Below, piece after piece: positions 10,184-55,674 of a DNA stretch of 56,434 nucleotides. A program made the position numbers and the translations under genes. The notes under the pieces were generated by a model. The model did not search any database. It saw only the letters and a list, made by a program, of their open reading frames with translations, and had not been told where the DNA came from. The stretch's first letter is position 1. Every line of letters starts with the position of its first letter. Source of the DNA: a virus. The stretch is from positions 1-56,434 of IMG/VR virus record IMGVR_UViG_3300044638_006829, one strand, 5' to 3'.

Positions 10184-10223
10184 GATCCTGTAGACGTATC
10201 ACCTATTGTCAGTTTAGGGTAAG

Positions 10224-10682: not shown

Positions 10683-10704
10683 TGTAAAGAACGCCTGCTG
10701 AGCT

Positions 10705-11325
10705 GTGGCCCAGTTAAGTCCGCAAGAACTGGAGCAAATCCAGAGTTATCTAGCTCAGCAGGGCGTTGTTTTTCAGCCTGATACAACTGACGCTACTAAG
10801 CGTGAAGTTGTATATGCAGCGATTAACCAGATAACCCGTAACCCAGCTCAAACGTTTGGGTACAGGTTAGATGATTTTAACTTTAGTCGTGTTGCGTATC
10901 ACTTAGGGTATAACATAGCGACTGTTCCTGCGGGTGATTACGCTCGCTTAATAGAAGCTTGCAATAGCGTTCCCAGTGAGTTTTATTTCGACAAAATTGT
11001 TCAACAAGTTGAGCGCTGCGAGGAAGCAGAGCGTTTAACAGAACTTGCAACCGGTCGCGCAACCAGTCGGCAAGAAACTATTTTGGGCGACGTTAGTCGT
11101 TCAATCAACATTCAAGACAAGCGGGAAACAGCAAAAATTTGGAGAGAAAATTACCTGTATGAGTGTGATCGTTTAGCGCACATGCTGTATATCCCGAACT
11201 ATCGGGACCCCGTGGCAGCCCGCTATCGGTTCGAGCGCAGTGGAGGAGAATTTATTCAAGCGATCCCTGGACCTCCTGATGTTTCAAGAGCAGACCGCCT
11301 ATACTTTTACGCAAATTGGCGATAG
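10705..11325 (+). CDS. Putative head-tail connection protein
   Basis: A 206-residue, mostly helical, charged protein with no certain family. The N-terminus reads LSPQELEQIQSYLAQQG, the middle holds CEEAERLTELATGR, and the C-terminus is aromatic (DRLYFYANWR). It begins with GTG 22 nt after the helix-hairpin-helix gene. Helical adaptor-like character and the place between capsid genes and low-complexity virion proteins suggest an adaptor or head-completion protein. This rests on context, not on a motif. Confidence 0.5.
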   Translation: MAQLSPQELEQIQSYLAQQGVVFQPDTTDATKREVVYAAINQITRNPAQTFGYRLDDFNFSRVAYHLGYNIATVPAGDYARLIEACNSVPSEFYFDKIVQQVERCEEAERLTELATGRATSRQETILGDVSRSINIQDKRETAKIWRENYLYECDRLAHMLYIPNYRDPVAARYRFERSGGEFIQAIPGPPDVSRADRLYFYANWR

Positions 11326-11360
11326 ACGCTATATTTATGTGAGAGCAGTATGTCGGCCTA

Positions 11361-12956: not shown

Positions 12957-12985
12957 TCTCTGTTAATTCACCCTGAATCACAGTC

Positions 12986-13444
12986 ATGGCTGACTACTTC
13001 ACCGGCGCAAATTCCTTAGCTGGTTATCAGCTTCCTTCTTCTTACAGTTTTCCCAAATATATTACGGGAGATCTGTCTACGTTTAAGCCGGATTTTGGGG
13101 ATGTGTTTTCGCAGCCAGAAGGGATGCTGGGTTCTTCTGCGGCTCCTAGCCCCACGCAACCTGGAGCTTCTCCTGGTTGGGGGAAACAATGGGGAGATCT
13201 GCTGACCGGTGTGGGGCGCCTCGCTGGTGGTGTCGGTGCGGGTATCGCAGCTGCTAAAGGCGATCCGATGGCCGGGCAATTGCTCTCAGCTTATTTTCAA
13301 GATAAGACTGGAGATACCGACGAAAGCGGCGAAAGTTCCTTGGTTAAGGCGCTGAAAGCTCTACAGGAATCTGGAATTATTTCGCCCGCTAAGTTGGAGC
13401 CTTTCAAGTTAGATACGGGTGACAGCTCTAAGCTGTTGGCTTAA
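12986..13444 (+). CDS. Putative virion protein with Gly/Ala hydrophobic stretch
   Basis: A 152-residue protein beginning MADYFTGANSLAGYQLP, with a Pro/Ser linker (AAPSPTQPGASPGWG), a Gly/Ala-rich hydrophobic stretch near residues 72-92 (LLTGVGRLAGGVGAGIAAAK), and a helical C-terminus. The layout (polar arm, linker, amphipathic or membrane-active helix) resembles the neighbouring 531-residue protein on a smaller scale. An internal or ejected virion protein is a reasonable guess. The gap that follows (13445-13515) holds a possible weak stem (CCCTC...GAGGG) just before the next start. Confidence 0.5.
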   Translation: MADYFTGANSLAGYQLPSSYSFPKYITGDLSTFKPDFGDVFSQPEGMLGSSAAPSPTQPGASPGWGKQWGDLLTGVGRLAGGVGAGIAAAKGDPMAGQLLSAYFQDKTGDTDESGESSLVKALKALQESGIISPAKLEPFKLDTGDSSKLLA

Positions 13445-13515
13445 TTTTTACCGCTCAACTCGACTTGTACTAGACTATTTGCAGAGTTGGAGCGCCCTCA
13501 TCCTAACAAGAGAGG

Positions 13516-14082
13516 GTGTTTAGTGTCACGAGTTCTACCTCAACAAACAAACAGCCCTGTCTAATCGACCGTCCGTTTTTACGGGGCGCTCGAATTACAA
13601 GTGCTACGACTACTTGTAACCCGACTAACCCCAATCTGACGGACTTAATTCAGTTAGTCCGCGTGGGGGATCTTCCGTCAGAAGATGCTGCTCTGGTTGA
13701 AGATATCACCATTGTTAGCAACGAAGGTTATCCCGATAACAGTGGCCGTCGGTCCGTAGATCTCGGCTTGTATGTCTACGCCCCTAACCAAGCAGCTCCC
13801 TCGACCTCAGCCGCGCTGATGGTGGGTCGGGTGGAAGTCGGCCTTAGCGGTTCGACACGCGGTATCCCGCAGAGTGTTCAACTGTTTGCTGTAAACGCCC
13901 CTGTTCCCCAGGTTGGCGACACAAACCTGTTGGCTCCGATTCAAATCGGTAAAGGTGAGGGCCTGTACCTTGAAAAAGGTTACATCCTGGCTGCAGGTTA
14001 TATCGGCACCGGCAGCACCGCTGTGTCTGGTGGTTTAAGTCCTTCTGGTATCACTATTTTTGCTCAAGGCGGTTTCTATTAA
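13516..14082 (+). CDS. Beta-rich virion protein
   Basis: A 188-residue protein of beta type, likely virion surface or decoration. Notable parts: a polar Thr/Ser N-terminus, CLIDRPFLRGARI near residue 20, a strand-rich core with LGLYVYAP and MVGRVEVGLSG, and a C-terminal YLEKGYILAAGYIG segment typical of phage beta-sandwich subunits. No named family. The start is GTG at 13516; a GAGAGGG just upstream lies too close to be an ideal ribosome site. It precedes the next virion gene by 6 nt. Confidence 0.55.
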   Translation: MFSVTSSTSTNKQPCLIDRPFLRGARITSATTTCNPTNPNLTDLIQLVRVGDLPSEDAALVEDITIVSNEGYPDNSGRRSVDLGLYVYAPNQAAPSTSAALMVGRVEVGLSGSTRGIPQSVQLFAVNAPVPQVGDTNLLAPIQIGKGEGLYLEKGYILAAGYIGTGSTAVSGGLSPSGITIFAQGGFY

Positions 14083-14088
14083 ACAGCC

Positions 14089-15621
14089 GTGGCACGTAAA
14101 CGGGGGTCAGATGACTTCGGCTTTAAATCATTAAAGCCGACTCCAAGCGTCGAACTACCTAAGAATATCAAAGGTGCCGACAATACTAAAGAATTAGGGG
14201 CACCTTTAACTTTTGAGCGTAGGTTTAGACCCGCGCTCAACACAAAGGACTTCAGTTTAGTTAGCGAGTACGATTACGCTTCCCTTTGGGTTCGTTGGCG
14301 TCGTGGCTACGAACTCAGCATGTACTCGCAAGAGGCGTACGGAGGTTTAACGTATTCATTTAAATACTTTGTTTCGGGCGCACCTGGGCTAGGTGTGTTT
14401 TTACCTGGGATGTGTTTCATGTATCCGACCACGCGGGCGGATATGCGGATGCACATGGTTGGTATTCGTCCGCGAGATTCTTTTAACTTCCTTAACTTCG
14501 GGTACTCGATTGTTGCAGTATCGGATTACGACCCAAACACATATGCCGTACGACTGAGTTCTAACTTTGGTGCTCCTATTTCGTTTTTCACAGGAGAAGT
14601 TTTATCTAATCGATTTACAGCAGCCGGTGTTGATAAAAAATTTGGATTCAATAACTACACCGTCACTGGAGTCGGCATTAACGGAGTCCCCGCTAATCCC
14701 TCATATGCTCCCATCTTCAACACACTATTTTTATCGCACACAGAAACTAACAGCTGGTCCGTGGTGGACGCCAACACACTTGCAATTCCTGCAACCGGTC
14801 CTCCGGCTGTTGGCGAGTATCTGACAACAGAGATGCGTTCGCAATGTACATGTCAGGATTTTCTCGGTAGAGAAAATTTCAACTTGTATGAAGCATCTAT
14901 TCGTAAAAAATATCCTTTAACTAAGCCTCAAAACTTAGACCCTGGTTTTTACGATGCTGGTGTTGATGGTTCTCCGCGTTTAGTTGATGCACAAGATAAT
15001 CCGGGTTTTGCTAGAACTTTTGGATTTATCTACATAAACAACATCTACAACACACCTAGTTTTGCGGAAGATTCGTACTCAGATCCTAATTTCTATTACT
15101 ACCAACCCAAGTGGTGCAAGCATATTTATGCGGCTATGTGGGACCTTCAACTTCGCTACGGCCAGGGGGATGCTACCAGTTCCTGGTTGCCGCAACCCGT
15201 GGACGAACCGCTAAACGAATACTATCGAGAATACTTCGCTAAAACGTTAGAAAAACAAACTACGTTTTTAAAAAGGGAGAAAGATCTGGTTTGGTGGGAG
15301 CGTTACAGCCCAGCTAAAGATGATATGCCTACGCACATGATGTACCCCGACATGTACAACATGATGGCTAAGACTCTTAATGCGGGTCAGCTGAACAGCG
15401 CTAGCGCTCTCCAGGCTCCAAGCTTTGAGATGTTCACCGTAGATGAATTCAACCCCTTCGACCCTGCATCTTTTGTTGTTAATACGTATGATGGCGGCAC
15501 TTACCTAAACGGAGTTTTAGTCAGTCAACCCATTAACATATTTGACGGCGGAACTTATTTGAACGGTAATTTAATTCCTCCTGCAGGTTTTCCTTCTCTC
15601 ATTAACGGCGGAACTTACTAA
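14089..15621 (+). CDS. Virion-block protein with split SWIM-like zinc motif
   Basis: A 510-residue aromatic-rich protein. It contains CTCQDFLGREN (C253, C255) and, 88 residues later, KWCKHIYAAMW (C343, H345). Together these reproduce the C-x-C...C-x-H ligands of a SWIM zinc finger, including the usual D-F after the first pair and the hydrophobic helix after CKH, but with a much longer insertion than normal. The C-terminus has three copies of a short motif, two of them DGGTYLNG and the last INGGTY as the very end. Start is GTG 6 nt after the previous gene; its stop overlaps the next start (TAATG). Structural role inferred from context. Confidence 0.6.
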   Translation: MARKRGSDDFGFKSLKPTPSVELPKNIKGADNTKELGAPLTFERRFRPALNTKDFSLVSEYDYASLWVRWRRGYELSMYSQEAYGGLTYSFKYFVSGAPGLGVFLPGMCFMYPTTRADMRMHMVGIRPRDSFNFLNFGYSIVAVSDYDPNTYAVRLSSNFGAPISFFTGEVLSNRFTAAGVDKKFGFNNYTVTGVGINGVPANPSYAPIFNTLFLSHTETNSWSVVDANTLAIPATGPPAVGEYLTTEMRSQCTCQDFLGRENFNLYEASIRKKYPLTKPQNLDPGFYDAGVDGSPRLVDAQDNPGFARTFGFIYINNIYNTPSFAEDSYSDPNFYYYQPKWCKHIYAAMWDLQLRYGQGDATSSWLPQPVDEPLNEYYREYFAKTLEKQTTFLKREKDLVWWERYSPAKDDMPTHMMYPDMYNMMAKTLNAGQLNSASALQAPSFEMFTVDEFNPFDPASFVVNTYDGGTYLNGVLVSQPINIFDGGTYLNGNLIPPAGFPSLINGGTY

Positions 15622-16178
15622 TGACCTCAACTCCTGTTGTTCTTCTTCTAAAGCGATCCGGACAATCGTCGGATAGGCCGAACACTTCAGTTGTTCAGAA
15701 CGGCGAACTAGCGATCTCCGTGGGCGCGGCTGATCCGGGCTTGTATTTTGAAGATTCTGCTGGAGCTATTCGTAAAATAGGACCGTCGAGTTATGGGATT
15801 ACTGCACCAAACTCCAGCCCTGTCGGATCGGTCGGAAATTCCGTAGGAGAACTTTGGACTGATAGTTCTAGCGCATCGTATTACTTAAAAGTTTGGAACG
15901 GAGCCGCTTGGCAGAAGATTGGTGCAGGGTTTGCTGATACCTCTACAACTTCTACAACAGCCACAACAGCTTTATTTGCAACTCAAGCTAATACAGCAAC
16001 TTTAGCGTCTGGTGCAATCCTGGCATCTGGAGCTGTACGCGGATCTACAGTTTACTCTGTAGGTCTTCCTGGACCTTCTACTCAACCCTCAGGTTCGTTG
16101 GTTTACTTAACCGAGACATCGGGGACGTATCCGAGCGGTTTATACGTCCGAGCTGCCGATGCGTGGGCATTTATTTAA
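15621..16178 (+). CDS. Fibre-like virion protein
   Basis: A 185-residue protein with the pattern NGELAISVGAADPGLYFED near residues 27-45, which I recall from N-terminal parts of cyanophage and other phage tail fibres, followed by ELWTDSSSASYYLKVWNGAAWQKIG, a fibre-type module also seen in the 24010-24876 gene. The second half is Thr/Ala-rich and shaft-like (TSTTATTALFATQANTATLA). It is short for a complete fibre and may be a fibre adaptor or stub. TAATG-coupled to the split-SWIM gene and convergent, with 4 nt overlap, with the Dps-like gene. Confidence 0.65.
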   Translation: MTSTPVVLLLKRSGQSSDRPNTSVVQNGELAISVGAADPGLYFEDSAGAIRKIGPSSYGITAPNSSPVGSVGNSVGELWTDSSSASYYLKVWNGAAWQKIGAGFADTSTTSTTATTALFATQANTATLASGAILASGAVRGSTVYSVGLPGPSTQPSGSLVYLTETSGTYPSGLYVRAADAWAFI

Positions 16179-16708
16179 GGACGCAGTGTGCTTTTGAGGA
16201 ACCACGAGGCTTTGAACATATCACCGACTAGCTCGGCTAAATAGTTTTCTACGTCGGGCGCATCTACTTCTTTAGCAATTTTTTGCAGATCTTTAGATGC
16301 AAACCCGCAAGTTTCTAAATTACGCAGATAGACAGTCAGACCGTCGCGTGTTTCGTAGGATTTCACATGTTTAAAATTTTTATAACTTGTTAGTAAACCT
16401 TTTTCGCACATAGGCATCAGAAAATCCATCGACCTGACAAATTCTCCGAGCTTGTCAAATTGTGTGATGTGTGCGTCGTATTGATCTTTAAGAAATTCGT
16501 GAATCGGTAAAAACAGAGGACCTTCGACGTTTAGGTGAAGTAAGTGACTTTGTACGTACAGTTGATGTACAAGCGAAGACAAAGACACCAGTCCGGAGAT
16601 AAGCTCTTCGACTGATGCCTTTGTTTCTGGCTGCTCCGGTGCTTCGGACATATCAGCTTGTTCCGTCGAGGAAACAGGGGCAGAACTGAAAGAACCGGAG
16701 AGCGTCAT
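16175..16708 (-). CDS. Dps-like ferritin
   Basis: A 177-residue protein whose residues 30-177 resemble the Dps/miniferritin four-helix bundle. Key segment: HLLHLNVEGPLFLPIHEFL then FDKLGEFVR. By comparison with Dps proteins, the ferroxidase ligands would be H58, H70, D85 and E89; the further Asp usually after the second His is shifted by one (K74-D75), and the usual HW is HL. Dps proteins oxidise and store iron and protect DNA from peroxide damage. The first 30 residues are a disordered Ser/Glu/Pro arm, as in some DNA-binding Dps tails. It is on the opposite strand, in a two-gene insert with a small HTH protein. Confidence 0.75.
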   Translation of the reverse strand: MTLSGSFSSAPVSSTEQADMSEAPEQPETKASVEELISGLVSLSSLVHQLYVQSHLLHLNVEGPLFLPIHEFLKDQYDAHITQFDKLGEFVRSMDFLMPMCEKGLLTSYKNFKHVKSYETRDGLTVYLRNLETCGFASKDLQKIAKEVDAPDVENYLAELVGDMFKASWFLKSTLRP

Positions 16709-30190: not shown

Positions 30191-30864
30191 AAATGACTGA
30201 TTTCAGAAATACTTTATTTAGCTTTGAAGGCGAAACTCCCGCTTTTTTACCTGCTAGGCTTCGTTTACCTTGCGGTCTTACCCGCTACTCTAACTCTATT
30301 ACGTTAGAAGAACTTCTTTCTTGCGGTTACATAGGTCCTATTGAAGTACCTATTTGTAAACCCGACGAATTTCCTCAATGGGACGCGGAGAAGCGTATTT
30401 TTGTTGTTTGTAAAAAATCTCCAGAAGAATTACTTATCAAAACTGATCAACTTTTTCGTTTACAGTTACAAGAACTTTTAAATAATTGCGATCCTTTAGA
30501 AAGAGAAACGTTAACAGAAGAAGGACAGAGTAAGTACGATAATTACTACGGTAAAATTGTAAATTTACTAGCATCTGATACATATATATCTGAACAAGAT
30601 ATACCTTCTTTGTCTTTGAATTTTTTAGACAAAAAAGGAGAAAAAGAAGCTTATTTAAACACAATAATTGATAAAAATTACATGCTTAAAATGCAGTTTC
30701 ATTATGAATATTATGGTGTAAACAGCTGGGAAATGGAGCGACCCGACGCTGTTATGAAAGATTTCAAAGATAACTTCACGCCCCCACCCACGTGGACACC
30801 TTCCGGTTCATTATCTGACGCTCAAATTCAAGCTTGGAAAAATTGCCCCACTGTTTGGGAGTAG
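30187..30864 (+). CDS. Putative fibre-assembly protein
   Basis: A 225-residue protein, GTG start at 30187 in a GTGA overlap (ATG at 30193 is an alternative). The N-terminal third (PARLRLPCGLTRYSNSITLEELLSCGYIGP) has the pattern L-P-x-R-x-R-L...T-R-Y...E-E-L-x-x-x-G-Y-x-G-P that I associate with fibre-linked or fibre-assembly proteins of cyanophages. The middle is a charged helix; the C-terminus has a WEMERPDAVMKDFKDNF segment and a PPPTWTPSG linker. No enzyme motif. Place between fibre and tail-collar genes supports a fibre role. Confidence 0.5.
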   Translation: MKMTDFRNTLFSFEGETPAFLPARLRLPCGLTRYSNSITLEELLSCGYIGPIEVPICKPDEFPQWDAEKRIFVVCKKSPEELLIKTDQLFRLQLQELLNNCDPLERETLTEEGQSKYDNYYGKIVNLLASDTYISEQDIPSLSLNFLDKKGEKEAYLNTIIDKNYMLKMQFHYEYYGVNSWEMERPDAVMKDFKDNFTPPPTWTPSGSLSDAQIQAWKNCPTVWE

Positions 30865-30867
30865 GGG

Positions 30868-30873
30868 TATAAT
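30868..30873 (+). promoter_or_regulatory. Candidate -10 box TATAAT
   Basis: TATAAT in the 43-nt gap before the tail-collar gene; CAGGAG (30895-30900) then gives a ribosome site for the TTG at 30908. No obvious -35. Confidence 0.4.
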
Positions 30874-30907
30874 ATAAAAAGGGCTTAATTCTGTCAGGAG
30901 TTCGAGT

Positions 30908-31969
30908 TTGGCTCGTAAATACGGCAATCAAACTGGTGCTTTTACTGATCCGTCTTCGGCAGGCGCCCCTGGCTCTTGGATTTCTCCTACCGAAGTAGCC
31001 CGTCAAAAAACAGCAAGCCGGTGGCCTGTTGTCTTGCCAGGGGCACCGCCTATTTTGACTGGCAGCTATGTTTTTGCAATAGCTAGTGGAATTTCTGACA
31101 CATTAGTTGCTGGAGGCAATTATCACGTTGCCGACGGTAGTGCGAAAAATAGGACAACAGATTCGGAGTTATTTGCCGTACTGAGCACTACGTACGGTAG
31201 TGGTAACGGAACTACTACATATAATCTTCCTGATTTATCTAATTCTTATACTTATTTGAAAACTACCACTGTTTCGGGATCTACCTTAGCGGCTCTTTCA
31301 GGAACAGCTTCTTTGCCTAGTCACACTCATAGTGTTTATGGAATTGCAAATAGTACAAGTTTTTCAACGAACAATAACGGACCACCGCGAACTCTTCGTA
31401 ATACTGCAGTCAGCGCTACGTTAGAAGTTGGAGCTGCAGGCGCTGCCGACGGCAATAATCCGCGTCGACGCCAAGCAAAAATTCTTATTGCCAGAACTTC
31501 AGCACTAGCTCAAACCGGCGTGGTGTTTCCTGTTCTTTTGCCGCTTAACGAAGCTTCTTTTGCGGCTGCACTACCTTCTGCTCTTATTATCCCATCCGGT
31601 CAGAATATTTCTAGGATTACTAACCCAACTTTGTTTGGGTATGTAGGCACTAAATTTGGTTCTGGTGATGGCTCTACAACATTCGGGTTGCCGGATCTCA
31701 GAGGTTTATTTCTTCAGGGGTATTCCACTGGCATCTTAGACGCATCGGGCACGCTTCCTAGCGGATACTTGCTCGATGGGTTTGCTAGGCACACTCACAT
31801 CTCTAACTTGCGGGCAGACAATGGTGGAGGACAAGCTCAAGGGCTTGGCGGTTTAACTAATCTAGGGAATACGATGTCTGCCCCTGTAACAGGTTCTTCA
31901 TCCCTTACCGGTACGGGAGATTCTAGACCTGCTAATGTATCTGTTGTCTGGTGTTTAGTAGGAGGTTAA
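30908..31969 (+). CDS. Tail-collar domain fibre protein (two modules)
   Basis: A 353-residue protein with two phage tail-collar-like modules. Module one has YGSGNGTTTYNLPDLSN and SLPSHTHSVYG (residues near 97-145); module two has FGSGDGSTTFGLPDLRGLFLQG and FARHTHISNL (near 250-300). In this family the collar forms a compact trimeric tip, and HxH residues bind metal ions in T4 fibre-like tips. The end, PANVSVVWCLVGG, is typical (R-P-x-N-x-x-x-x-x-x-I). The start is TTG with CAGGAG. Role: host-contact fibre or its tip. Confidence 0.85.
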   Translation: MARKYGNQTGAFTDPSSAGAPGSWISPTEVARQKTASRWPVVLPGAPPILTGSYVFAIASGISDTLVAGGNYHVADGSAKNRTTDSELFAVLSTTYGSGNGTTTYNLPDLSNSYTYLKTTTVSGSTLAALSGTASLPSHTHSVYGIANSTSFSTNNNGPPRTLRNTAVSATLEVGAAGAADGNNPRRRQAKILIARTSALAQTGVVFPVLLPLNEASFAAALPSALIIPSGQNISRITNPTLFGYVGTKFGSGDGSTTFGLPDLRGLFLQGYSTGILDASGTLPSGYLLDGFARHTHISNLRADNGGGQAQGLGGLTNLGNTMSAPVTGSSSLTGTGDSRPANVSVVWCLVGG

Positions 31970-31974
31970 ATAAA

Positions 31975-32496
31975 GTGATTGGTCAGATTCTTCTCTCTAG
32001 TCGACATTTGGGCACTGTCTTCAGTCCGCCAGGAGCCTCTTACGCTTTGTTAAACGGGCAAAGTCTAAACAGGAGTACTTACGGTTCCTTAAGTGCTTAT
32101 TGGCCTACCGGTGCCTATGGCAGTACTGTAACTACTATAGTTCTTCCGGATTTAACTGATGGTTATTATTTAAGAGGGCATTCTTTTGGTAATGGTTTTG
32201 ATCCCGGTGCTAGTTCGAGAACCGTTCCTTCGGGCACGCTTCCTGTAGCCCCCAGTGGCATCGGAACTTTTCAATTAGCCCAGATGGTGACCCACACTCA
32301 TCCTTCTGGAACTCAATCTGCAACTTTACCGTTCGGCGACGGCGGAGGAGACGCTAACGCAACCTATCCTGTCTTAGGGACCGCAACTAGCGCAGCCCCC
32401 TCCACTTTGGCCGGACTTACCGTTGTGGGAACCGCCAGTCAAACGTCGTTTGATCTTGCTCATATGAAATTTTATCCGTACATTAGAATTCTTTAG
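31975..32496 (+). CDS. Second tail-collar-like protein
   Basis: A 173-residue protein starting GTG 31975, with AGGAGG at 31960-31965 placed inside the end of the previous gene; the frame extends upstream to 31951 but that part has no ribosome site. It contains LLNGQSLNRSTYGSLSAYW, then VLPDLTDGYYLRGHSFG and a MVTHTHPSG metal-type HxH, the marks of a single tail-collar module. Probably works with the two-module protein before it. Convergent with the next gene, with only a 2-nt gap. Confidence 0.8.
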   Translation: MIGQILLSSRHLGTVFSPPGASYALLNGQSLNRSTYGSLSAYWPTGAYGSTVTTIVLPDLTDGYYLRGHSFGNGFDPGASSRTVPSGTLPVAPSGIGTFQLAQMVTHTHPSGTQSATLPFGDGGGDANATYPVLGTATSAAPSTLAGLTVVGTASQTSFDLAHMKFYPYIRIL

Positions 32497-32498
32497 TG

Positions 32499-33065
32499 TT
32501 ATATAAAGTTATACCATCCTGTTATAATGTATTTTGATTGGGTTGGAGATACAACACCTTTGTGTGTGTGCGTGAAATCAGGAGGCCATATGAGAATTTT
32601 TCCTTTTACGGCATCTTCAGTGTGATTTAAATACTTAAAGTGCGTCCCTCCAGCATCCGTTAAATCATTTAAATATATCATCCAAACCAACATTCTTGTT
32701 GTTGTATTAACGCAACTGCGTTCGCAGTGATATTCCTTGAATCCTCCGTTTGGCGGTATGTATTTTTGTATGTTTACTTTTTCCGTCATTGAAAAATTAA
32801 AACCATCTAGTTTGAACTCTTTTATGTATGCTAAAATAGACTTCCATAAAGAATTTAGTAAGTTTTCAAAGCACGGAATAGTGTACAAGTCTTCTACACA
32901 TAAAGATATATCTAATGACTCCTTAGCTTCCTTAATAACTACTTGTCCGTGCTCATCCCGTACTCTCCCAGGAGAAGCCATATGGATATTTTTTTCAAAC
33001 CAATGTATTGCATGTTCGCAATCTATTGTATTTTCAGTCGTGTAACGTCGAATAAATGAGTCCAT
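32499..33065 (-). CDS. 2OG-Fe(II) oxygenase (HxE subtype)
   Basis: A 188-residue protein resembling a cyanophage oxygenase family. Ligands read as H113-x-E115 (EYHCERS), with H166/H168 (THTHKG) and K178 (SKYIITGW) for 2-oxoglutarate. MIYLNDLTDAGGTHFKYL and KGKILIWPPDFTHTH are the usual strands. In this subtype HxE is normal in my recollection, so it should be active. It is a different branch from the 29156-29815 enzyme. It is on the minus strand with the exostosin-like glycosyltransferase upstream, 51 nt away, making a small accessory unit among fibre genes. Confidence 0.8.
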   Translation of the reverse strand: MDSFIRRYTTENTIDCEHAIHWFEKNIHMASPGRVRDEHGQVVIKEAKESLDISLCVEDLYTIPCFENLLNSLWKSILAYIKEFKLDGFNFSMTEKVNIQKYIPPNGGFKEYHCERSCVNTTTRMLVWMIYLNDLTDAGGTHFKYLNHTEDAVKGKILIWPPDFTHTHKGVVSPTQSKYIITGWYNFI

Positions 33066-44237: not shown

Positions 44238-45053
44238 TTAGAAGTCGATGCCCAGGGTTTTTGCTTGCTCGGCAGTCAGCTCCACAGCTTTTTTACTCTT
44301 GGGGTCGGGGGGTTCGGTAGCTGCCGCAGGTTCTGCTTCTGCTGACTTGAGAACTTTTGGAGTTGAGGTAGAACCAAAAGTCCGCTCAGGAGGGTTACCG
44401 CGTTGCTCTGCAAAGAGCGCTTTGATTTCCGCGTGGTCTGAACCGAGTGGAAGCTCCACCAAATCAGACCCAGGAATGTGAGACTTGAGTGCTGAGGCGC
44501 ACAAGTTACCTCCCTTAGCGGTCAGCCAGCTGTTGATGTCTTCGATGAGCTTGTGTTCCTCATCATTTGCCGTCGGGCGATCCGCAAACTCCAGTGCGTT
44601 GAAGTTGATCTTGGCACCGTCGGCACCGGTCAGAGGATCGCGTTCGTTGAAACTGCGAGTCACAAACTTGGTTGTTGTGATTACGGATGCACAGTTAATC
44701 CGGTTGTTGTACAGCGTCTGGAAGTAACTAATGAAGTTCTTCTGCGACGACTTACCTGAAATCATCGAGGTAGTGACACACCGTGGGGGGAGTAGTCGAT
44801 GATTAGGACTCACACCAATGTACGCAATGCGCAGGAATTCTTCCTGGTTTCGCATACCTAAATTGCCGAAGAAGGGTGTGAAGCCCACTAAGACAAATTC
44901 AATCGGAATCCCGTTGTCGTTTCGATCGACGATCGCGGAGTCGGGATCTACGTCTGATTTCCAGCGGCGAGCCTGTAGATCAATGCGCAGTGTGTGAGGC
45001 GGGACGTTACAGAGGATTTCGTCTTGTGAAAACTGGCCAGCAATAAACACCAT
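44238..45053 (-). CDS. Hypothetical replication-cluster protein
   Basis: A 271-residue protein between the SSB-like gene and nblA. The first 200 residues are a mixed alpha/beta domain, with GFTPFFGNLGMRNQEEFL, then PPRCVTTSMISGKSSQKNF and NNRINCASVITTTKF; the last 60 are a Pro/Ala/Glu linker ending AKTLGIDF. No family is recognised with confidence. The acidic/hydrophobic tip and the place, 14 nt after an SSB-like gene, point to a role in replication or recombination, perhaps as a partner of the SSB. Confidence 0.55.
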   Translation of the reverse strand: MVFIAGQFSQDEILCNVPPHTLRIDLQARRWKSDVDPDSAIVDRNDNGIPIEFVLVGFTPFFGNLGMRNQEEFLRIAYIGVSPNHRLLPPRCVTTSMISGKSSQKNFISYFQTLYNNRINCASVITTTKFVTRSFNERDPLTGADGAKINFNALEFADRPTANDEEHKLIEDINSWLTAKGGNLCASALKSHIPGSDLVELPLGSDHAEIKALFAEQRGNPPERTFGSTSTPKVLKSAEAEPAAATEPPDPKSKKAVELTAEQAKTLGIDF

Positions 45054-45067: not shown

Positions 45068-45712
45068 TCAGAGGGAGAAATCAATCGAACCGATAGCGGC
45101 AGCGGCTACCTTTCCTTTTTCAGGATCGACAGCCTTCTTAGGAGTTGTTTTGGTGGACTTAGGAAGATAGAGAATTTTGTCGACTGTGTAGTTGAGATAG
45201 TTCTTTTCGTCTTTCTCGCTAGTGGAAACTTTGCCTACTGCGATAGTCGGAGTTCCTGGTGCGAGTTCCGAAAGCTGTTTAGACAGCTCGCCCCAGGCAG
45301 TGAGTTTGAACCACGCGGTTTCGCTATCTTCCGCCTGCCAAGCAAGTGAACGATTTGTAACCGTAGTGTCGCTTAGCTCAACTTCATCTGCCTTCGGACC
45401 CAGGCCCCCCGTGGCCATAAAGACGTTGATGGCCAACAGATCGCTGAAGTTGTCTTCAGTGACAACCAACATGGGTTGCATTTTCAGCACTCCGTCGATT
45501 GTCGGTTTTGTGGGCCCGATAGCAAGAATGGTTTGTCCTTCCTTCAGTTCCTTAAGCAGCTTGCCTACGTAGTGTGAAGCTTGCTGAAGCAACTGAAATT
45601 TAGTTTCAACTCGTTTGTCGTTAGAAGGCAAGCTTTCCGCCAGCACATTCACAAGTCCTTCATCTTCCTGCGCGGTTGCAGTTACTCGCAGACCCATCAG
45701 AAATAGATTCAT
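45068..45712 (-). CDS. SSB-like protein with tandem OB folds
   Basis: A 214-residue single-stranded-DNA-binding protein. Residues 105-185 match the SSB OB fold: NVFMATGGLGPKADEVEL, TVTNRSLAWQA, then TAWFKLTAWGELSKQL and GTPTIAVGKVSTSEK. The first 95 residues look like a second, more diverged OB fold (QASHYVGKLLKELKEGQTI). The tail is Lys/Pro then AAIGSIDFSL, a variant of the acidic-hydrophobic SSB tip without the acidic run. It protects ssDNA during replication. Start at ATG 45712 (an ATG at 45697 is possible), overlapping the upstream gene. Confidence 0.72.
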   Translation of the reverse strand: MNLFLMGLRVTATAQEDEGLVNVLAESLPSNDKRVETKFQLLQQASHYVGKLLKELKEGQTILAIGPTKPTIDGVLKMQPMLVVTEDNFSDLLAINVFMATGGLGPKADEVELSDTTVTNRSLAWQAEDSETAWFKLTAWGELSKQLSELAPGTPTIAVGKVSTSEKDEKNYLNYTVDKILYLPKSTKTTPKKAVDPEKGKVAAAAIGSIDFSL

Positions 45713-48001: not shown

Positions 48002-49900
48002 TTACTTCGCTGACCAATCGTTGCCTACGCCAGACTCTGCTGTTAAGCGAGTCTTATTGAAGACGGAAGCTCCCGCGTTAACCATAATCTCAGTCAGCTT
48101 AGTCTTCCAGTGCTCTTCTAATCCCTCTCTCACTTCCAGCACGCATTCATCATGCACCACAGCAATTAACCGTACGTCATCGTTTAGGTGTTCGCTCAGT
48201 TCACCTATTGCAATCTTGAGAATATCCGCACCTGTTCCTTGGATCAGTGTATTTGCTGCGATTGTCATGCGGGCATCATCGTACGCAAGCAGACGGCGGC
48301 GACCTAAGGCAGTTCTGGTAAAGCACCACCCATCTTCCACTAAAGATCCCCTTTGCCTGTGCCATTGACGCAACCGTGGGTACGCATTGTGGAACTTGCT
48401 ATGTAAGATCTTGCTCTCAGACAAACTTAAATGCACACCGAACGATGCAGCAGCATATGTTTTGAACTTTCGAAAGCCGATTCCGTAGATGAAGCCAAAA
48501 TTTGCGCCTTTAGCCATCTGTCTCTGCTGCTTTGTGACGGCATCGATATCGCAATCGTTCACTAAACTCGCAGTGAGCGTATGTAGATCCAGATCTATGT
48601 TATACGCTTCCTGCATCTGCGGGATATCCGCTAGTTCTGCTAACAGTCTCAGTTCCATTTGCGAGTAATCCGCGATCACAAGCTTGTAACCTTCGCTAGC
48701 TATGAAGCATTCCCGGAACGCTTTCGAGCGTGGAACTTGCTGCAAGTTCACACCAAAGGTCGTTTTTTTCTTCGTTTTAGCTGTTTTAGTTGCCCCCGAG
48801 CACGTGAAACGTCCGCTGTTCGCCCCTACTTGGTTGTAAAAACTATGAATCCTGTGCGTCATAGGGTTGATGTTATCAATAAGTTTATTAATGTGCTCTA
48901 GACTTGTCTCAATCTTTGCACGTTCTCTGTAGAGATTCAGTGTGCTGTCGTCGCTATCGAATTCTGCTAATGAAATTTGATTTAGTGTAGCTTTCTTAGT
49001 GTCTTCGTTTATCGGGAGAGCGATGCCGCATAGCGAAAACGCGGCGGCTACTTGGGCTGTCGAGCCTGGGTTGAACTCCTTTGTAGCTTTTTTTCCGACA
49101 AGAACGCGGCCATCAGCCCCGCGTGGGAGTTTCCGATCTTCAGGTAGTTGAGCATCTAGCTCCTCCACAAATACTGTTGTTTTCTCCAGAAGTTCAGCTT
49201 CAATTTTTAATTTTAGTGTTTTTAACTTCTCTATATCCACATTGAATCCTGTGTACGCCATCTTGGCCACAGCCCGTACACACTTAGATTCGATGCTGTA
49301 GATGCCGATTAACTCTTCTTCTTTCAGTTCTTTCAGTTGATCTGCTGCTATAGCGGGCAGAATATCTACGTCTTTTGCAGCGTATTCGACTTGCTCCAGA
49401 GTCAGTTCATCTACGCTCCAATCTGTCAGTCTTTGTTCCTTGTCGACTTCCAGATCTAATCGCCTTTCCGCTACAGCTTTAAGTGAGCAAGAAACATCCG
49501 CAAAGTATGGCTTGTTCAGCTTGGGAGACATCCGCTTCTCCTGGAAACCAGCCCTCAGAACTCGTTCAGCTAAATAGGTATCAAATATCTTGTTTCTGAA
49601 ATCGATGCCCATGGAGAAGAAAAACTGCAAGTCGAACCCCAGGTTGTGGCCCACCAGCATTTCCCTAGTTTCAATAAGGGTTTTTAACTCCGGAACCACC
49701 GTGGTTTTGAACAGATCGAATACGTAAACCGTTCTGTTTGTTTCAGAAGGCGACGCATCGCACAACTGCAGTAAACGTATCTTCGCAACAGTGGCCTGCA
49801 GTCCTGTTGTTTCTGTGTCAGCGCATAACTTAGGGTATTCCTGAAGGTTTTTAATTGCTTTTGAAGCGTTCTGATTATCTGTGATGAACTCAATTTTCAT
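48002..49900 (-). CDS. DNA polymerase I (family A) with 3'-5' exonuclease
   Basis: A 632-residue replicative polymerase of T7/Pol I type. Exonuclease: CADTETTGL (D28, E30), VGHNLGFDLQFF, and VEYAAKDVDIL (third motif, Y-x-x-x-D). Polymerase: LVIADYSQMELRLLAEL (motif A, near residue 410), RQMAKGANFGFIYG (O-helix, motif B, near 463; F is at the position linked to high fidelity in E. coli Pol I) and VVHDECVLEV (motif C, near 581). No 5' nuclease domain is present. It replicates the phage genome with the primase-helicase and SSB encoded nearby. Confidence 0.93.
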   Translation of the reverse strand: MKIEFITDNQNASKAIKNLQEYPKLCADTETTGLQATVAKIRLLQLCDASPSETNRTVYVFDLFKTTVVPELKTLIETREMLVGHNLGFDLQFFFSMGIDFRNKIFDTYLAERVLRAGFQEKRMSPKLNKPYFADVSCSLKAVAERRLDLEVDKEQRLTDWSVDELTLEQVEYAAKDVDILPAIAADQLKELKEEELIGIYSIESKCVRAVAKMAYTGFNVDIEKLKTLKLKIEAELLEKTTVFVEELDAQLPEDRKLPRGADGRVLVGKKATKEFNPGSTAQVAAAFSLCGIALPINEDTKKATLNQISLAEFDSDDSTLNLYRERAKIETSLEHINKLIDNINPMTHRIHSFYNQVGANSGRFTCSGATKTAKTKKKTTFGVNLQQVPRSKAFRECFIASEGYKLVIADYSQMELRLLAELADIPQMQEAYNIDLDLHTLTASLVNDCDIDAVTKQQRQMAKGANFGFIYGIGFRKFKTYAAASFGVHLSLSESKILHSKFHNAYPRLRQWHRQRGSLVEDGWCFTRTALGRRRLLAYDDARMTIAANTLIQGTGADILKIAIGELSEHLNDDVRLIAVVHDECVLEVREGLEEHWKTKLTEIMVNAGASVFNKTRLTAESGVGNDWSAK

Positions 49901-49962: not shown

Positions 49963-50778
49963 TCAGACGCTGCGGTTGGTGAAGATGTTATCCACATAGT
50001 CATAGATATCTCCCCAGGCGCGGACCATTTCCTTTCCTTTCTCCGAAGCTCGCAGCCGATAGTAGACCCGCTGCATATGAGCAGCCTTCTGGGATGTTGC
50101 TGCTCGATGGCTGCCCACAGACAGACCGTGCTTCTGCTCCATCAGCCCGTGGTTACGGCACCACAGCAGTCCTTCCCGCAACCCGATATACAGCGGGCTC
50201 ACGTGGTAGGAATGACGCCGCTCTACAGTCGGGCCCTGGTCTTGAGGCTCCCAAGCGGTGGCGTCACTGTTTCGCATGAATCCCCGGAAAGCCACGCACT
50301 GATCGCGTGCATCTGTTTCCCGCCAGACATGGTTGACGTACGTTGTCGCAATTTCGCGTATGGTCACCCACTCGCCTTTGCTGCTCTCTGCCAGTAAGAG
50401 AGCCGCACCTCCGGACCAGTAGCTGTTGTGCGCGTGCAGCTTGTCGATAAGCTCATCGATTGAGGAGCTGCTGGACACCATCTTGGTGTGTGCTCCAGTG
50501 CGCTCAACGGGCTTAGATGCAGCTCGCTTTCGGGGCGCTGGGTTTGCTGCGGAGTTTTGAACAGAGATCTTCCAAGCCAGCGAAGCCAGCTCTTGGTTTT
50601 GATTCTTGATGGACAGCTCGAACAGCCGCTGACTATCCAGCCTGCCGAGATCGATTAGCTTGCTTAGCTCGATTTTCACAGAGCCATCAGCCGATCCGTC
50701 TGTGGCCGCCAACAATGCTTCCGCCTCTGCCTGCTTGATTGGCGTGTTGTCGAGAAGGAATTGAAAAGTCATGTCCAT
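49963..50778 (-). CDS. Hypothetical DNA-binding-like protein
   Basis: A 271-residue protein (ATG 50778; ATG 50772 and a TTG at 50796 are alternatives). Residues 1-85 are helical (LSKLIDLGRLDSQRLFELSI). After a basic Ala/Arg/Lys linker (PAPRKRAASKPVERTG), the C-terminal two-thirds includes SKGEWVTIREIATTYV and a GLREGLLWCRNHGLME segment, both like winged-helix units, ending KEMVRAWGDIYDYV. It is followed by a strong terminator and preceded by a TATAGT-like box (near 50812). Probably a regulator; not assigned to a family. Confidence 0.55.
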   Translation of the reverse strand: MDMTFQFLLDNTPIKQAEAEALLAATDGSADGSVKIELSKLIDLGRLDSQRLFELSIKNQNQELASLAWKISVQNSAANPAPRKRAASKPVERTGAHTKMVSSSSSIDELIDKLHAHNSYWSGGAALLLAESSKGEWVTIREIATTYVNHVWRETDARDQCVAFRGFMRNSDATAWEPQDQGPTVERRHSYHVSPLYIGLREGLLWCRNHGLMEQKHGLSVGSHRAATSQKAAHMQRVYYRLRASEKGKEMVRAWGDIYDYVDNIFTNRSV

Positions 50779-50840
50779 GTGACCTGAACAGCGCAAGACT
50801 AGGAAGACGGAGGCTACTATACAAGGGCGTTTAATTTTTC

Positions 50841-51460: not shown

Positions 51461-53011
51461 TTAACGCAAACATTTCTGAATGGCATCTATAGTGCTCTCC
51501 GTGTTGTAAACGTTTACCGAGTACATCTCATCGCTAAACGTTTTACAGACATCTGGTACGTCGCTATTGATGCACACGGTAGACCACTGCATACCTGTTT
51601 GTTTCTTGAACACATCGAGTCTGCGCTTAAGGATTTCCGTAACGTCTGAGTGACCGTCAGTAATCATCAGGACATCAGCTCGCGGATCTTTGCACCCGTG
51701 ATCCAGAGCGTGGGCAATAACGGCGTTGAAGCTAGTGCCTCCGCCAAGAGTCCACGTCCCTACGAAATCCAGCAGAGTTTTGGTGTTAGGTGTTTTGGGT
51801 TTCAGCTCTACTGTTTGATCGATTCGGGTGTCGAAAAGGTTGATGTAAACCTTGCGGTTTTCTTTCAAAGCTTCTTCCGCAATCACAAAAGCAATAGCCT
51901 TGCTCCACAGTTCAGGTTCTCCACCCATAGAGCCTGATACGTCGATGTACATAACAACTGGCCCTTTGCCTAGTTGTTTTGTGTTTGCTGTGTAGTCTTT
52001 AGTTAAGATAGTTTTTTGTGCAAACTTCATAGCAAATAATGCTCGGCCCTGCGGCGAAGCCGCTAAAGCAATCTCAACCGGAAAAGCTTTAGTTACATCG
52101 TTGCTGAAGGTTGCGCCGGTAACAGCTTCGTAGGTCGCTGCTGTTTTCTTCTCCCGTTTGCGCTGAGCCCATACCCTGCGCAATGCCCCCAACTTAGTTG
52201 TAAGCTCCCGGAGCTTCTTATTGCCCTTCAGACGCTGCGCCAGGTCCCGCTTAGCCTGTAGGTCTGTGCCGTGCCTCCCCTCGCCTGGCTCAACCCCGTG
52301 GAGGTTAGACATAGCTTCATTGAGGCTGTCGCTATCCTTCAGGACTTCATCCACAATCTGGTTTGATTGCGATTGAATTTTCTCAGCAGCTTGCTGGACT
52401 GCATCGCTGAGCGCTTGATTAAGAGCCTTACCTTCCTTTCGCGCCATGTCTGCTGCAGCTTTATCGCCTTTGGCCACAGCATCTTTGTACTGTTGCCGCA
52501 GCTCCTCAAGCTTCTCTCCAGCTCCTGTCAGCAGCTGTACGTCGAACGAGTTTTGTTCGATGGCCTCTTGGATAACGTCTGCCAGGCGATTCAGTATGTT
52601 GATCGCGTTGTTACCAGCGTTGAATTGATCTCCCACGCAACGTTGCAGGAGATCAGACCATCCGGCAGCTTGGCCAAGATCAGCCATGATCGCGTACCAG
52701 ACTCCGTTCTCTGGCTTGTATCCTTCCGGTAGAGCAGCTTTGTCGCCATCGCACATCTTACGGAAGTAAGTTTCGTAAGCATCTTCGCTCACCAGCCACT
52801 TAACGTTATCAGCGTTGTACAAGCGGTCATACAGTTCCTTACCAAACCTAGACAGTTGTTTGATGTTGTAGTGATCAATCAGATACTTGACGATCGGCCT
52901 AGTCTCGCGGATGAAGTCATCCCAGAGAAAGTCGGCCAGAGGTGAGCAAGCAAGTGTCAAAGGCTCGTTGTTTACGAGCCGAACAAATTCAGACTGGGTT
53001 TCGAAGTTCAT
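51461..53011 (-). CDS. VWA-domain protein (CobT/ViaA/CoxE-like)
   Basis: A 516-residue protein. The C-terminal 200 residues are a von Willebrand factor A domain with an intact MIDAS: VMYIDVSGSMGG (D-x-S-x-S near residue 355), GGGTSFNAVI (Thr) and VLMITDGHSD (Asp). The N-terminal part is helical, with a very charged stretch (KLEELRQQYKDAVAKGDKAA) as in CobT-, ViaA- or CbbO-type partners of MoxR ATPases. Such proteins act with the ATPase to remodel or insert metal in target proteins. It is 13 nt downstream of the AAA+ gene. The target in infection is not known. Confidence 0.82.
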   Translation of the reverse strand: MNFETQSEFVRLVNNEPLTLACSPLADFLWDDFIRETRPIVKYLIDHYNIKQLSRFGKELYDRLYNADNVKWLVSEDAYETYFRKMCDGDKAALPEGYKPENGVWYAIMADLGQAAGWSDLLQRCVGDQFNAGNNAINILNRLADVIQEAIEQNSFDVQLLTGAGEKLEELRQQYKDAVAKGDKAAADMARKEGKALNQALSDAVQQAAEKIQSQSNQIVDEVLKDSDSLNEAMSNLHGVEPGEGRHGTDLQAKRDLAQRLKGNKKLRELTTKLGALRRVWAQRKREKKTAATYEAVTGATFSNDVTKAFPVEIALAASPQGRALFAMKFAQKTILTKDYTANTKQLGKGPVVMYIDVSGSMGGEPELWSKAIAFVIAEEALKENRKVYINLFDTRIDQTVELKPKTPNTKTLLDFVGTWTLGGGTSFNAVIAHALDHGCKDPRADVLMITDGHSDVTEILKRRLDVFKKQTGMQWSTVCINSDVPDVCKTFSDEMYSVNVYNTESTIDAIQKCLR

Positions 53012-53024
53012 GATCTTTGTTGGT

Positions 53025-54212
53025 TTACTTACTAATGTCGCTGATGGCTCTAGCTAAGGTGTCGCAATGATTCTGTAGGTTTTGTTGAAGCTTAACTCCG
53101 GCAGCACGAGTGTTTGCTGACATGCGAAGTTTAGAACCATCGAGCAGCTCGGATACCTTATCGCGTACCGTTGTCATATCCTTTGCGTATTTACGCAGCA
53201 GTACAACAAACTCATTAAGTTCGCTGAGCCCTTTGGATTTGTAACGGTGACTGTGCGAGCTGTACTCAGCCATGATTCCAGCAGCAGCTCGTTTAGCGTC
53301 CGAGAACACTTTGTCCGCCGTGGGAATCTCCTGCTCCAGAACCTCGCGAATAACATTCTGATCCTCAGCCGTTTGGTAGACGATGTGAATCAGACTGCCG
53401 TGCATATGCTCTGCGTACAGTTCGTCATCACCCTGTACGATTGCCCAAGCTTTAAGGAACTTGAGAATCTGTATGCGGCGACGGTCGCTGATTGTGATGG
53501 CTCGTGTTTGGAGCATCTCCCACACAGAATTGAACTTATCTAGAAAGTCTTCTGAGACTTTTACAGTGCTTGCTTCAGCCTGCAATTCGGACAAGTCTTC
53601 TAGTGTCAGGTGCTGACCTACGTCGGGTCGTTTCGTTAGACCTAAACCCCACTGATCCAACCTCCGCTTCGACACCGGCTTGCGCAACAGATCTACAGTT
53701 GGCCGGAAGAGGAATCGATCAGCAAATGCCTGAAGTGATTCTTCCTCTGGCCAACTGTTTGTGGCGGCAATGATTGATTGAATCGGAGTCTGAATGTTCT
53801 CCTTACCGTTGTTGAAGGTGCGTTCGTTGAGGAGAGTTAGGAGAGAGTTCAAGATCGCGGAAGATCCCCGGAAGAGTTCGTCCAAGAATCCAATGTGTGC
53901 TGTAGGCAAGTAGCCGTCTACATCGCGGCTGTACTCATCGTTGAGCAGTTTGGTTACGGCTACCGGTCCGAAGACTTCCGAAGGATCTGTCGTGGGAGTC
54001 AATAGATACCCGAAGTAATTAGATCCTGTGATTCCTGCACATACACTGCGCACCAGATCAGATTTGCCGGTGCCGGGAACTCCCAGCAGAAACGCATTCT
54101 GCTTGCTGAGAAGCGATGAAAGCAGACCATCAATAACATGCTCGCGTTCGAGACTGCTCGCGTTCAGTGCTCCGCGAAAGTTCTGAAGCTTTTGGAAGAG
54201 TTGATCTTTCAT
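53025..54212 (-). CDS. MoxR/RavA/CobS-type AAA+ ATPase
   Basis: A 395-residue ATPase from the ATG at 54212 (the frame continues upstream to 54293 inside the preceding gene). Walker A is GVPGTGKSDL (near residues 44-53), Walker B IGFLDELFRG (near 107-116), then SLLTLLNERTFNNG and the sensor IIAATNSWP; a DRFLFR arginine segment follows. The F-x-D-E-x-x-R-x-x and L-L-x-x-L-x-E-R phrases are typical of the MoxR clade. These ATPases form hexamers that work with VWA proteins. It is flanked by the VWA gene and a coiled-coil gene in one leftward operon. Confidence 0.85.
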   Translation of the reverse strand: MKDQLFQKLQNFRGALNASSLEREHVIDGLLSSLLSKQNAFLLGVPGTGKSDLVRSVCAGITGSNYFGYLLTPTTDPSEVFGPVAVTKLLNDEYSRDVDGYLPTAHIGFLDELFRGSSAILNSLLTLLNERTFNNGKENIQTPIQSIIAATNSWPEEESLQAFADRFLFRPTVDLLRKPVSKRRLDQWGLGLTKRPDVGQHLTLEDLSELQAEASTVKVSEDFLDKFNSVWEMLQTRAITISDRRRIQILKFLKAWAIVQGDDELYAEHMHGSLIHIVYQTAEDQNVIREVLEQEIPTADKVFSDAKRAAAGIMAEYSSHSHRYKSKGLSELNEFVVLLRKYAKDMTTVRDKVSELLDGSKLRMSANTRAAGVKLQQNLQNHCDTLARAISDISK

Positions 54213-54241
54213 TAGTTTGGGTCGAATGTGTTTTACGTGAG

Positions 54242-54448
54242 TCAGGAGATCCCTGTAGGGTGCGGAAACTTTAAGTAAGTAGCCTTTACCCAACAGGCTC
54301 GGGAGAGTTTGTCGCGAATCATCTTCAGCTTTTTAGTAGCGCTATCGTGATTTTCGAAAAGTACTGCAGCGCATATGTCTGAAGTGTATTTTTCGATGTC
54401 ACATAGATAGCCCTCTTTAGATTCGATGACGTGAACTACGCGGTGCAT
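54242..54448 (-). CDS. Small protein between coiled-coil and AAA+ genes
   Basis: A 68-residue protein, TAATG-coupled to the 408-residue gene before it. Sequence is mixed, with VHVIESKEGYLCDIEKYTSD and a basic later half (SATKKLKMIRDKLSRACW). No motif. Its position, between two parts of the AAA+ module, suggests it belongs to the module. Confidence 0.55.
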   Translation of the reverse strand: MHRVVHVIESKEGYLCDIEKYTSDICAAVLFENHDSATKKLKMIRDKLSRACWVKATYLKFPHPTGIS

Positions 54449-55674
54449 TAGAAATCAACCTCCGTATCGTTATCCGAATCCTCAAACTCTTCAGCCGAAG
54501 GTTCCACAGCTACAAACTCTGACAAGAGTTCGTCTAAGTTTTCACCGGCAGCTCCGATAAGTTCCTTGCGCTGGTTGATAAGTTTTTTGAGTTGCTTGGA
54601 TCGCTGTACATATACGTCAAGTTCAAGGTTTGCATCCTTAACGAGAAGGTTTAGCGCTGACGGGTTCTCAGCAGACTTAATGCGGTCACACAGAGATTTG
54701 TATTGGGAAGAGAGAGCCAAAGATTGCTTGAGTTTTTCGAGACCTTTAGATTCATCTCGCTTGTTGCAGATCGCTTCAAGTTCTGTGCGAATCTCTTCTT
54801 GAACTGCTACGAACTCATCTGTACCTTTCTGACGGACACTCCGATCATTTGCTTGGATGTCATTACCCGCGTCAAGCAGCCGCGCGGCAAGAGCGGAAAG
54901 ATGGTCGAAGCCGGGAACAGAATCACTGATGAGTTTCAGTTTCTCTGCAGTTAGCTGCCACGATCCGCGTTTCTTGTTGCCGCCAGTTTGCTGCCGTCCG
55001 ACTTTGCTAGCGATGCGTACATCCAGATCATCTAGCAGCTCAGCGCTAATAGTTAGTGCTTTATCTGCAGCATTGTTTCTTGCTGCTTCTAAAACCTGTT
55101 GTGTGTTGATTTGATTCTCGTAAGCCATCAACGCCGCCAGGTCGCCATCAATCGGCTTCTCCACACGCTCCATTGAGACAGGGAGAGGGCCCAACACCGA
55201 CACTCGAATTGGAGCACGGTATTCCTGCCGCGTGGGGAAGATTCTCAGATACGCTTCATGCGCGAGCTTGAATTCGTCGCTGTCTTCGAAAAGTGGGCGA
55301 AGGATGGCGTCTGCTGTTTGAGCCCATGCATCGTATTCACCTTTCCAAAGATCTTTCAGGCGCTCGTTAGCTTGTTCAGCCGCAGTGCGAATGGTTTTGA
55401 TCAGATCGTTAGCGCACTCAAAATAGTTAGAAGTGACAAAATGAGAATCGCCGTAGTGAATGCAATAGCTGTCATACAGTTCACGCTGCATGACACGAAG
55501 TGCATCAAGCTCTGCTTTGAGAGAGTTTGAAAGATTCGGTCGAAGGCTGACTGTGTTGTTCTCTTCAAGAGTTTCGATAACAGACTTAGGTAGTTTGAGA
55601 TCGTCGAACTTGATCTGAACTGACTGTCGGACATCTGCAGAGATTGAACAAGCAAGCAGATAGTGAGTGGTCAT
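54448..55674 (-). CDS. Coiled-coil third component of the MoxR/VWA module
   Basis: A 408-residue, mostly helical, charged protein. Segments include LKAELDALRVMQRELYDSY, ERLKDLWKGEYDAWAQTAD and a late ELDVYVQRSKQLKKLINQRK; the end is acidic with a hydrophobic tip (SDNDTEVDF). The order (helical protein, AAA+, VWA) is like CobS/CobT-type sets in mobile elements that include a DUF3150 protein, and this could be a remote relative, but I cannot confirm the family. Likely an adaptor or substrate-recognition subunit. First gene of the operon; a terminator lies 37 nt upstream. Confidence 0.6.
   Translation of the reverse strand: MTTHYLLACSISADVRQSVQIKFDDLKLPKSVIETLEENNTVSLRPNLSNSLKAELDALRVMQRELYDSYCIHYGDSHFVTSNYFECANDLIKTIRTAAEQANERLKDLWKGEYDAWAQTADAILRPLFEDSDEFKLAHEAYLRIFPTRQEYRAPIRVSVLGPLPVSMERVEKPIDGDLAALMAYENQINTQQVLEAARNNAADKALTISAELLDDLDVRIASKVGRQQTGGNKKRGSWQLTAEKLKLISDSVPGFDHLSALAARLLDAGNDIQANDRSVRQKGTDEFVAVQEEIRTELEAICNKRDESKGLEKLKQSLALSSQYKSLCDRIKSAENPSALNLLVKDANLELDVYVQRSKQLKKLINQRKELIGAAGENLDELLSEFVAVEPSAEEFEDSDNDTEVDF

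Follow-up and report, generated by a model that had tools for sequence, protein, structure and literature searches.

A 56,434-nt virus record, IMGVR_UViG_3300044638_006829 (hereafter the window), encodes on the minus strand at positions 51461-55674 a MoxR-type AAA+ ATPase, a von Willebrand factor A (VWA) protein and a 408-residue protein, p408. The ternary composition and the spread of this trio are well supported by sequence comparison, and it is apparently common to S-EIV1-like cyanophages and cyanobacterial plasmids by a single origin. As to function, we propose a three-component, ATP-driven remodeller of mobile DNA, and infer that it would most likely act on phage replication or nucleoprotein complexes, a tentative reading that we place a little short of probable.

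The trio in cyanophages and on plasmids

The head genes mark the virus as an S-EIV1-like cyanophage: Synechococcus phage S-EIV1 has a major capsid protein 67% identical, and a portal protein 44% identical, to those encoded in the window. This bears out the guess of a cyanophage made in an earlier, sequence-only reading of the window. The host is presumably a freshwater or brackish picocyanobacterium. All four open reading frames (ORFs) that this reading had picked out, namely p408, a 68-residue protein (p68), MoxR and VWA, were found where it had placed them, and the MoxR start alone was corrected, from TTG at 54293 to ATG at 54212; in most relatives MoxR starts at the ATG equivalent to window position 54212, 29 nt past p68. 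The TAATG coupling of p408 to p68 (junction ...GATTTCTAATGCAC, in which the ATG start overlaps the TAA stop) and the 13-nt gap between the MoxR stop and the VWA start are likewise present.

By each feature tested, the sequences of the ATPase and its partner place them among the MoxR-VWA couples. Their Pfam matches are well beyond chance, with bpMoxR (PF20030, E = 4e-55) plus AAA_lid_8 in MoxR and VWA_2 (PF13519, E = 5e-7) in the VWA protein. The earlier reading had called both functional sites intact and had named a defect in either as grounds for dropping its proposal; the residues proved to be intact and conserved. Across 19 aligned MoxR proteins, the Walker A motif GVPGTGKS is kept, with one variable position, and the Walker B DE (D111, E112), sensor-1 N152 and R166/R170/R244-R246 are invariant, while the metal ion-dependent adhesion site (MIDAS; DxSxS...T...D) of the VWA protein, formed by D357, S359, S361, T426 and D452, is invariant across 51 proteins. 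Ratios of nonsynonymous to synonymous substitution (dN/dS) against the closest relative, L002, were 0.011 for MoxR, 0.040 for p408, 0.039 for VWA and 0.027 for the family A DNA polymerase (PolA) encoded downstream. By this measure the three core genes are under strong purifying selection and kept as functional proteins.

Linkage was counted across viral contigs at 75 distinct MoxR loci, with loci having enough flanking sequence as denominators. VWA accompanies MoxR in 72/72 loci, p408 lies upstream of it in 70/71 and PolA follows the trio in 24/24; at the sole p408 exception, L124, the upstream gene is missing. An S-EIV1-like capsid gene is found together with p408 on all ten trio contigs of 75-87 kb and on most of the shorter contigs examined, and one 61.7-kb contig with the capsid gene but without p408 may be a fragment. 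A search for the same gene order in other cyanophages, suggested in the sequence-only reading, thus returned a near-invariant p408-MoxR-VWA order among 75 distinct relatives. By contrast, p68 was found in 52/71 relatives and is missing or unrecognisable in about a quarter, so that p68, earlier counted as part of the machine, is better seen as accessory and the trio as the core.

Beyond viral contigs, the closest MoxR proteins are encoded by the Acaryochloris plasmid pREC1 (43% identity) and the Chroococcidiopsis plasmid pA (38%). A p408 profile independently selects the gene directly upstream of MoxR on both (E = 1.8e-22 on pA and 7.5e-17 on pREC1), and the order p408-MoxR-VWA is found on Acaryochloris marina pREC1 and pREC4 and on Chroococcidiopsis pA and pCHRO.01. 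There the three genes are annotated as a hypothetical protein, an AAA/MoxR ATPase and a VWA protein; the plasmid trios differ from the phage trio in having no adjoining PolA. Homologues of p408 occur on seven cyanobacterial plasmids, five of them typed as conjugative, although some copies look decayed, for example on pMB06 and pMB04 of Acaryochloris 'Moss Beach'. Co-occurrence elsewhere, the lack of which had been named as evidence against a joint system, is therefore seen both in viral relatives and on plasmids. Scans of genome contigs with p408 and MoxR returned no relatives, and all p408 versions found so far reside on cyanobacterial elements. A 21-protein MoxR tree unites those linked to p408 in one group (support 89/96), and a single change accounts for p408 linkage in every bootstrap tree (100%), so the trio was most likely assembled once. 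In Chroococcidiopsis, a toxin-antitoxin or antitoxin gene separates MoxR from VWA; at two plasmid loci (L268, 6553-7198; L276, 9040-9669), a HigA/RelE toxin-antitoxin pair has inserted there on the opposite strand.

Spread over phages and conjugative plasmids is also what would be expected of an anti-defence or inter-element conflict machine, which would disarm a host or competitor system or shield its own element. MoxR-VWA trios are carried by mobile elements across many phyla, related ternary systems have been proposed as conflict systems (PMC7159879), the plasmid neighbour genes include HigBA, AbiEii and NACHT, and S-EIV1 does without the trio. We nevertheless consider this explanation unlikely, if a serious contender: above noise, PADLOC was blank for MoxR, p68 and p408, its best match to VWA being a weak ZorA; an effector domain was not found; and within the phage clade the trio is a near-universal core module fixed beside PolA, not variable cargo.

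p408 and the candidate client

Transcription along the minus strand runs from p408 through p68, MoxR and VWA to two small ORFs, a 277-amino-acid protein and PolA, and farther on to a helix-turn-helix protein, a weakly matching single-stranded DNA-binding protein (SSB)-like protein with an oligonucleotide/oligosaccharide-binding (OB) fold, a conserved protein (p271), an exonuclease and a primase. This operon context is one hint at a role in replication; the other, equally read from sequence, is the invariant acidic -DF end of p408, which resembles SSB tails. Residues ~387-408 form a disordered, acidic tail that closes on Asp-Phe in 48/48 phage homologues, while the tail before these two residues varies. 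SSB tails have as their signature an acidic stretch that closes on Phe, and the two SSBs that we encountered end in DEPF and YDDF. With p271, an unrelated protein of the same operon, also ending in [D/E]F, a replication or nucleoprotein client is the most economical guess. The two tails are not lost together: in G012, p271 has lost its -DF end and p408 has retained its own. Among 18 p271 sequences including that of the window, the odd one out, from L295, ends in GLAV; the protein is strongly conserved, has no assigned family and adjoins the SSB-like p214.

A place within the replication operon, with head, portal and tail encoded on the other strand, sits poorly with a chaperone for virion assembly, the role proposed for MoxR-VWA pairs noted earlier in jumbo phages and in Acidianus two-tailed virus (ATV), where the pair would serve tail development (PMC7824862). 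ATV and its relatives do encode a MoxR AAA protein annotated as structural together with a VWA cochaperone. Yet the same trio is found on plasmids, which make no virions, and the head genes of the window are common to S-EIV1, which is without the trio; we therefore hold this role to be quite unlikely. The p408-trio homologues on conjugative plasmids point instead to a role common to mobile DNA, not to virions or photosynthesis, and probably to a machine by which mobile DNA remodels complexes on its own DNA.

Such a remodeller would work as follows. By analogy with NorQ-NorD and CbbQ-CbbO, MoxR would form a hexameric ring with the VWA domain docked in its pore, the MIDAS metal would bind an acidic ligand on the client, and ATP hydrolysis would pull on or remodel that client. 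p408 would recruit the client to the ring, or be the client itself. Its acidic -DF tail would dock in the SSB-tail-binding pocket of replication proteins or, alternatively, its tail Asp would dock at the VWA MIDAS. The invariant -DF end could offer a single-residue route to the client.

Several observations weigh against a replication target. S-EIV1 has none of p408, MoxR and VWA and replicates nonetheless, so the trio is dispensable for replication in the wider group. Position in the operon could mirror the timing of early expression, not the target. Plasmid p408 homologues end in -GF, with the Asp a few residues before, so the reading of the tail is not uniform. No DNA-binding domain was detected in p408, whose PDB fold search gave only generic helical bundles below a meaningful level, and the model of the VWA protein has a predicted template modelling (TM) score of 0.45. 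As for the replication genes themselves, PolA of the window is only 22% identical to S-EIV1 PolA (S-EIV1 30693-32564) compared with 67% for the capsid protein, and the replication module has thus probably been swapped between S-EIV1-like phages.

By sequence, p408 has no match in PHROGs, NCBIfam, PADLOC or, above cut-off, Pfam, and is absent from the annotated phage records searched. Its AlphaFold2 model, built from 47 homologues, has a predicted local distance difference test score of 76.6 and comprises an N-terminal strand, helices, a beta-hairpin, another strand, long helices and the disordered tail. The protein is mainly helical, as the sequence-only reading had it, but strands occupy residues 4-13, 71-81 and 156-165, and it is not the simple coiled coil also suggested there. 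A Foldseek search of BFVD viral models gave seven matches under 1e-3, the first being a DUF3150 domain-containing protein (E = 4.6e-7, probability 1.00). The TM-scores of 0.40/0.53 and root-mean-square deviation (rmsd) of 8.6 over 329 columns, from a model of middling confidence, place this likeness at the level of the fold only. Because the PF11348 (DUF3150) profile, searched up to E = 10 against the window and 13 related records, found nothing, assignment to DUF3150 by sequence was dropped, and we speak of a DUF3150-like fold and not of a DUF3150 member. One of the weaker matches, S5YZA3, is probably gp94 of Mycobacterium phage Dylan, judging from length and neighbourhood, and adjoins a classical AAA ATPase, not a MoxR.

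Neighbouring genes

Coordinates of the trio and of its conserved neighbours are collected in Table 1. A promoter scan around the operon gave a number of sites not above expectation.

Table 1. Genes of the trio and of the replication operon in the window
Feature	Position	Strand	Description
p408	54448..55674	-	408 aa, dedicated third component, DUF3150-like predicted fold
p68	54242..54448	-	Small accessory protein, translationally coupled to p408 (TAATG)
MoxR-type AAA+ ATPase	53025..54212	-	395 aa from conserved ATG; TTG-extended ORF to 54293
VWA protein	51461..53011	-	516 aa; N-terminal half helical, C-terminal VWA domain, MIDAS intact
277-aa protein between VWA and PolA	49963..50796	-	Kept by synteny in the clade
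Family A DNA polymerase (PolA)	48002..49900	-	PF00476 E = 3e-62; synteny
p214, SSB-like OB-fold	45068..45712	-	PF00436 E = 7.5e-4, under cut-off (weak)
p271	44238..45053	-	Conserved, same operon; C-terminus [D/E]F in 17/18 sequences

Elsewhere in the window, a minus-strand gene at 16175-16708 is 48% identical to the DNA-binding ferritin-like (Dps) protein of S-EIV1, and among the genes ahead of the portal a glycosyltransferase family 17 protein is encoded on the plus strand at 2057-2893 (PF04724, E = 6e-17). In several relatives (L297, L298 and L299, from G001, G017 and G008), a group I intron of ~1 kb (185-1138 in L297) splits the major capsid gene downstream of about codon 37. It matches Rfam RF00028 with E-values down to 8e-18, and the L297 intron holds a 276-amino-acid open frame resembling a homing endonuclease. 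The capsid gene of the window itself is uninterrupted.

Comparison with known MoxR-VWA systems

The enterobacterial RavA-ViaA pair has, like the trio, a VWA protein after a bpMoxR AAA domain, and the VWA proteins are similar over the C-terminal half. RavA is the best PDB match of the window MoxR (E = 2e-32) and the VWA protein fits the NCBIfam ViaA model over residues 218-480, as would be expected had the phage acquired RavA-ViaA with its role in Escherichia coli. That origin is exceedingly improbable. MoxR scores 131.4 bits against the NCBIfam RavA equivalog cut-off of 681, and the VWA protein 59.9 bits against the ViaA cut-off of 500; the LARA and RavA_C domains, both present in Salmonella RavA, were absent from the window MoxR in Pfam scans; and the nearest MoxR relatives are plasmid and phage proteins. 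Domain content and equivalog cut-offs thus rule out orthology, and RavA-ViaA further differs in lacking p408 and in the N-terminal half of its VWA protein. Partners of the Rea1/NorD type carry a VWA extension ('finger') that enters the AAA pore; in a comparison aimed at this feature, the VWA model matched the Rea1-MIDAS/Ytm1-UBL complex (residues 246-504, 188 aligned, Z = 14.7, rmsd 3.5), and plain VWA domains scored equally.

Clients known for MoxR-VWA pairs are metabolic complexes, as with RavA-ViaA, NorQD and CbbQO (PMC3893208, PMC9976466, PMC4660213). In NorQ-NorD, the AAA+ ring is plugged by the VWA domain, activation of the client depends on the MIDAS site, and acidic residues of the client probably supply the ligand of that site (PMC9976466). 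With p408 versions so far confined to cyanobacterial elements, the trio might accordingly hijack host metabolism by remodelling or metallating a cyanobacterial complex such as Rubisco, a photosystem or a chelatase. The photosynthetic or carbon-fixation target considered in the sequence-only reading found no support, and we regard such a role as very unlikely: the genes lie in a replication operon beside PolA, among whose products domain scans recognised no metal-enzyme gene; CbbQ, CobT and NorD-type domains were not above cut-off in the Pfam scan (CobT_C of the cobaltochelatase CobS-CobT reached 12.7 bits against the window VWA, cut-off 21); and a sister trio, in which the third gene encodes a DUF6744 protein, occurs in non-photosynthetic Firmicutes and Actinobacteria.

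Ternary conflict systems of MoxR, VWA and beta-propeller proteins (PMC7159879) share a PF20030 MoxR, a VWA protein and a third protein with the trio. Since RavA matches PF20030 too, this family is not diagnostic of beta-propeller systems, and we rejected the assignment: p408 is mainly helical, and Pfam scans of eight proteins between 48.0 and 55.7 kb gave no beta-propeller domain over the cut-off. Among phage proteins, those of DUF3150 (PF11348) are like p408 in predicted fold, p408 being ~100 residues longer. DUF3150 genes also lie beside CobS/CobT on plasmids, a background that we do not use as evidence. A MoxR from another subfamily is encoded by S-CREM1 (PMC9964418). The RavA-ViaA region of Campylobacter phage A11a, a candidate that we discarded (L035, MG065691.1, 'UNVERIFIED', 5375-16226), is E. 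coli chromosome with 100% identity over 10.9 kb and represents contamination, as probably does the same E. coli match in phage A18a.

The closest parallel is the DUF6744-MoxR-VWA arrangement. DUF6744 matches lie ~0.1-2.3 kb from the MoxR match on at least nine plasmids, and such neighbourhoods were seen on plasmids of Brevibacillus, Alicyclobacillus, Nocardia, Streptomyces, Rubrobacter and Pseudanabaena and in Moorella phage MTATph1. Like the p408 trio, they combine a mobile-element MoxR, a VWA gene (in the records examined) and a comparably sized third gene. Neighbours include an SSB gene in Pseudanabaena and a nearby Rad52 gene in the Moorella phage, and the MoxR-VWA pair of CL131 abuts a gene for the DNA polymerase III beta subunit. 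No sequence relation between p408 and DUF6744 was detectable, leaving a single superfamily unsupported; CL131 gp148 and Moorella CDS0119, tried as p408 homologues, were blank in hhalign and are LPD29 and DUF6744 proteins, respectively. Neither DUF3150 nor DUF6744 was mentioned in the literature searched.

MoxR-VWA machines are widespread, with few clients known and each identified case by case, and against that background a compact, near-universal phage module provides motor, adaptor and co-inherited third protein. The earlier proposal of a phage MoxR-VWA machine with a third protein of its own therefore stands, extended to plasmids; p408 itself may be an adaptor, a substrate or a DNA-binding partner. 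A broader and distinctly more doubtful possibility is that phages and conjugative plasmids share a new class of ternary MoxR-VWA machines. If true, these would be AAA+ remodellers of the replisomes or nucleoprotein complexes of mobile DNA and not chaperones of metabolism; the third protein, whether p408/DUF3150-like or DUF6744, would guide the motor to such complexes, p408 doing so by its acidic C-terminal -DF tip, either as a mimic of SSB tails or by occupying the MIDAS.

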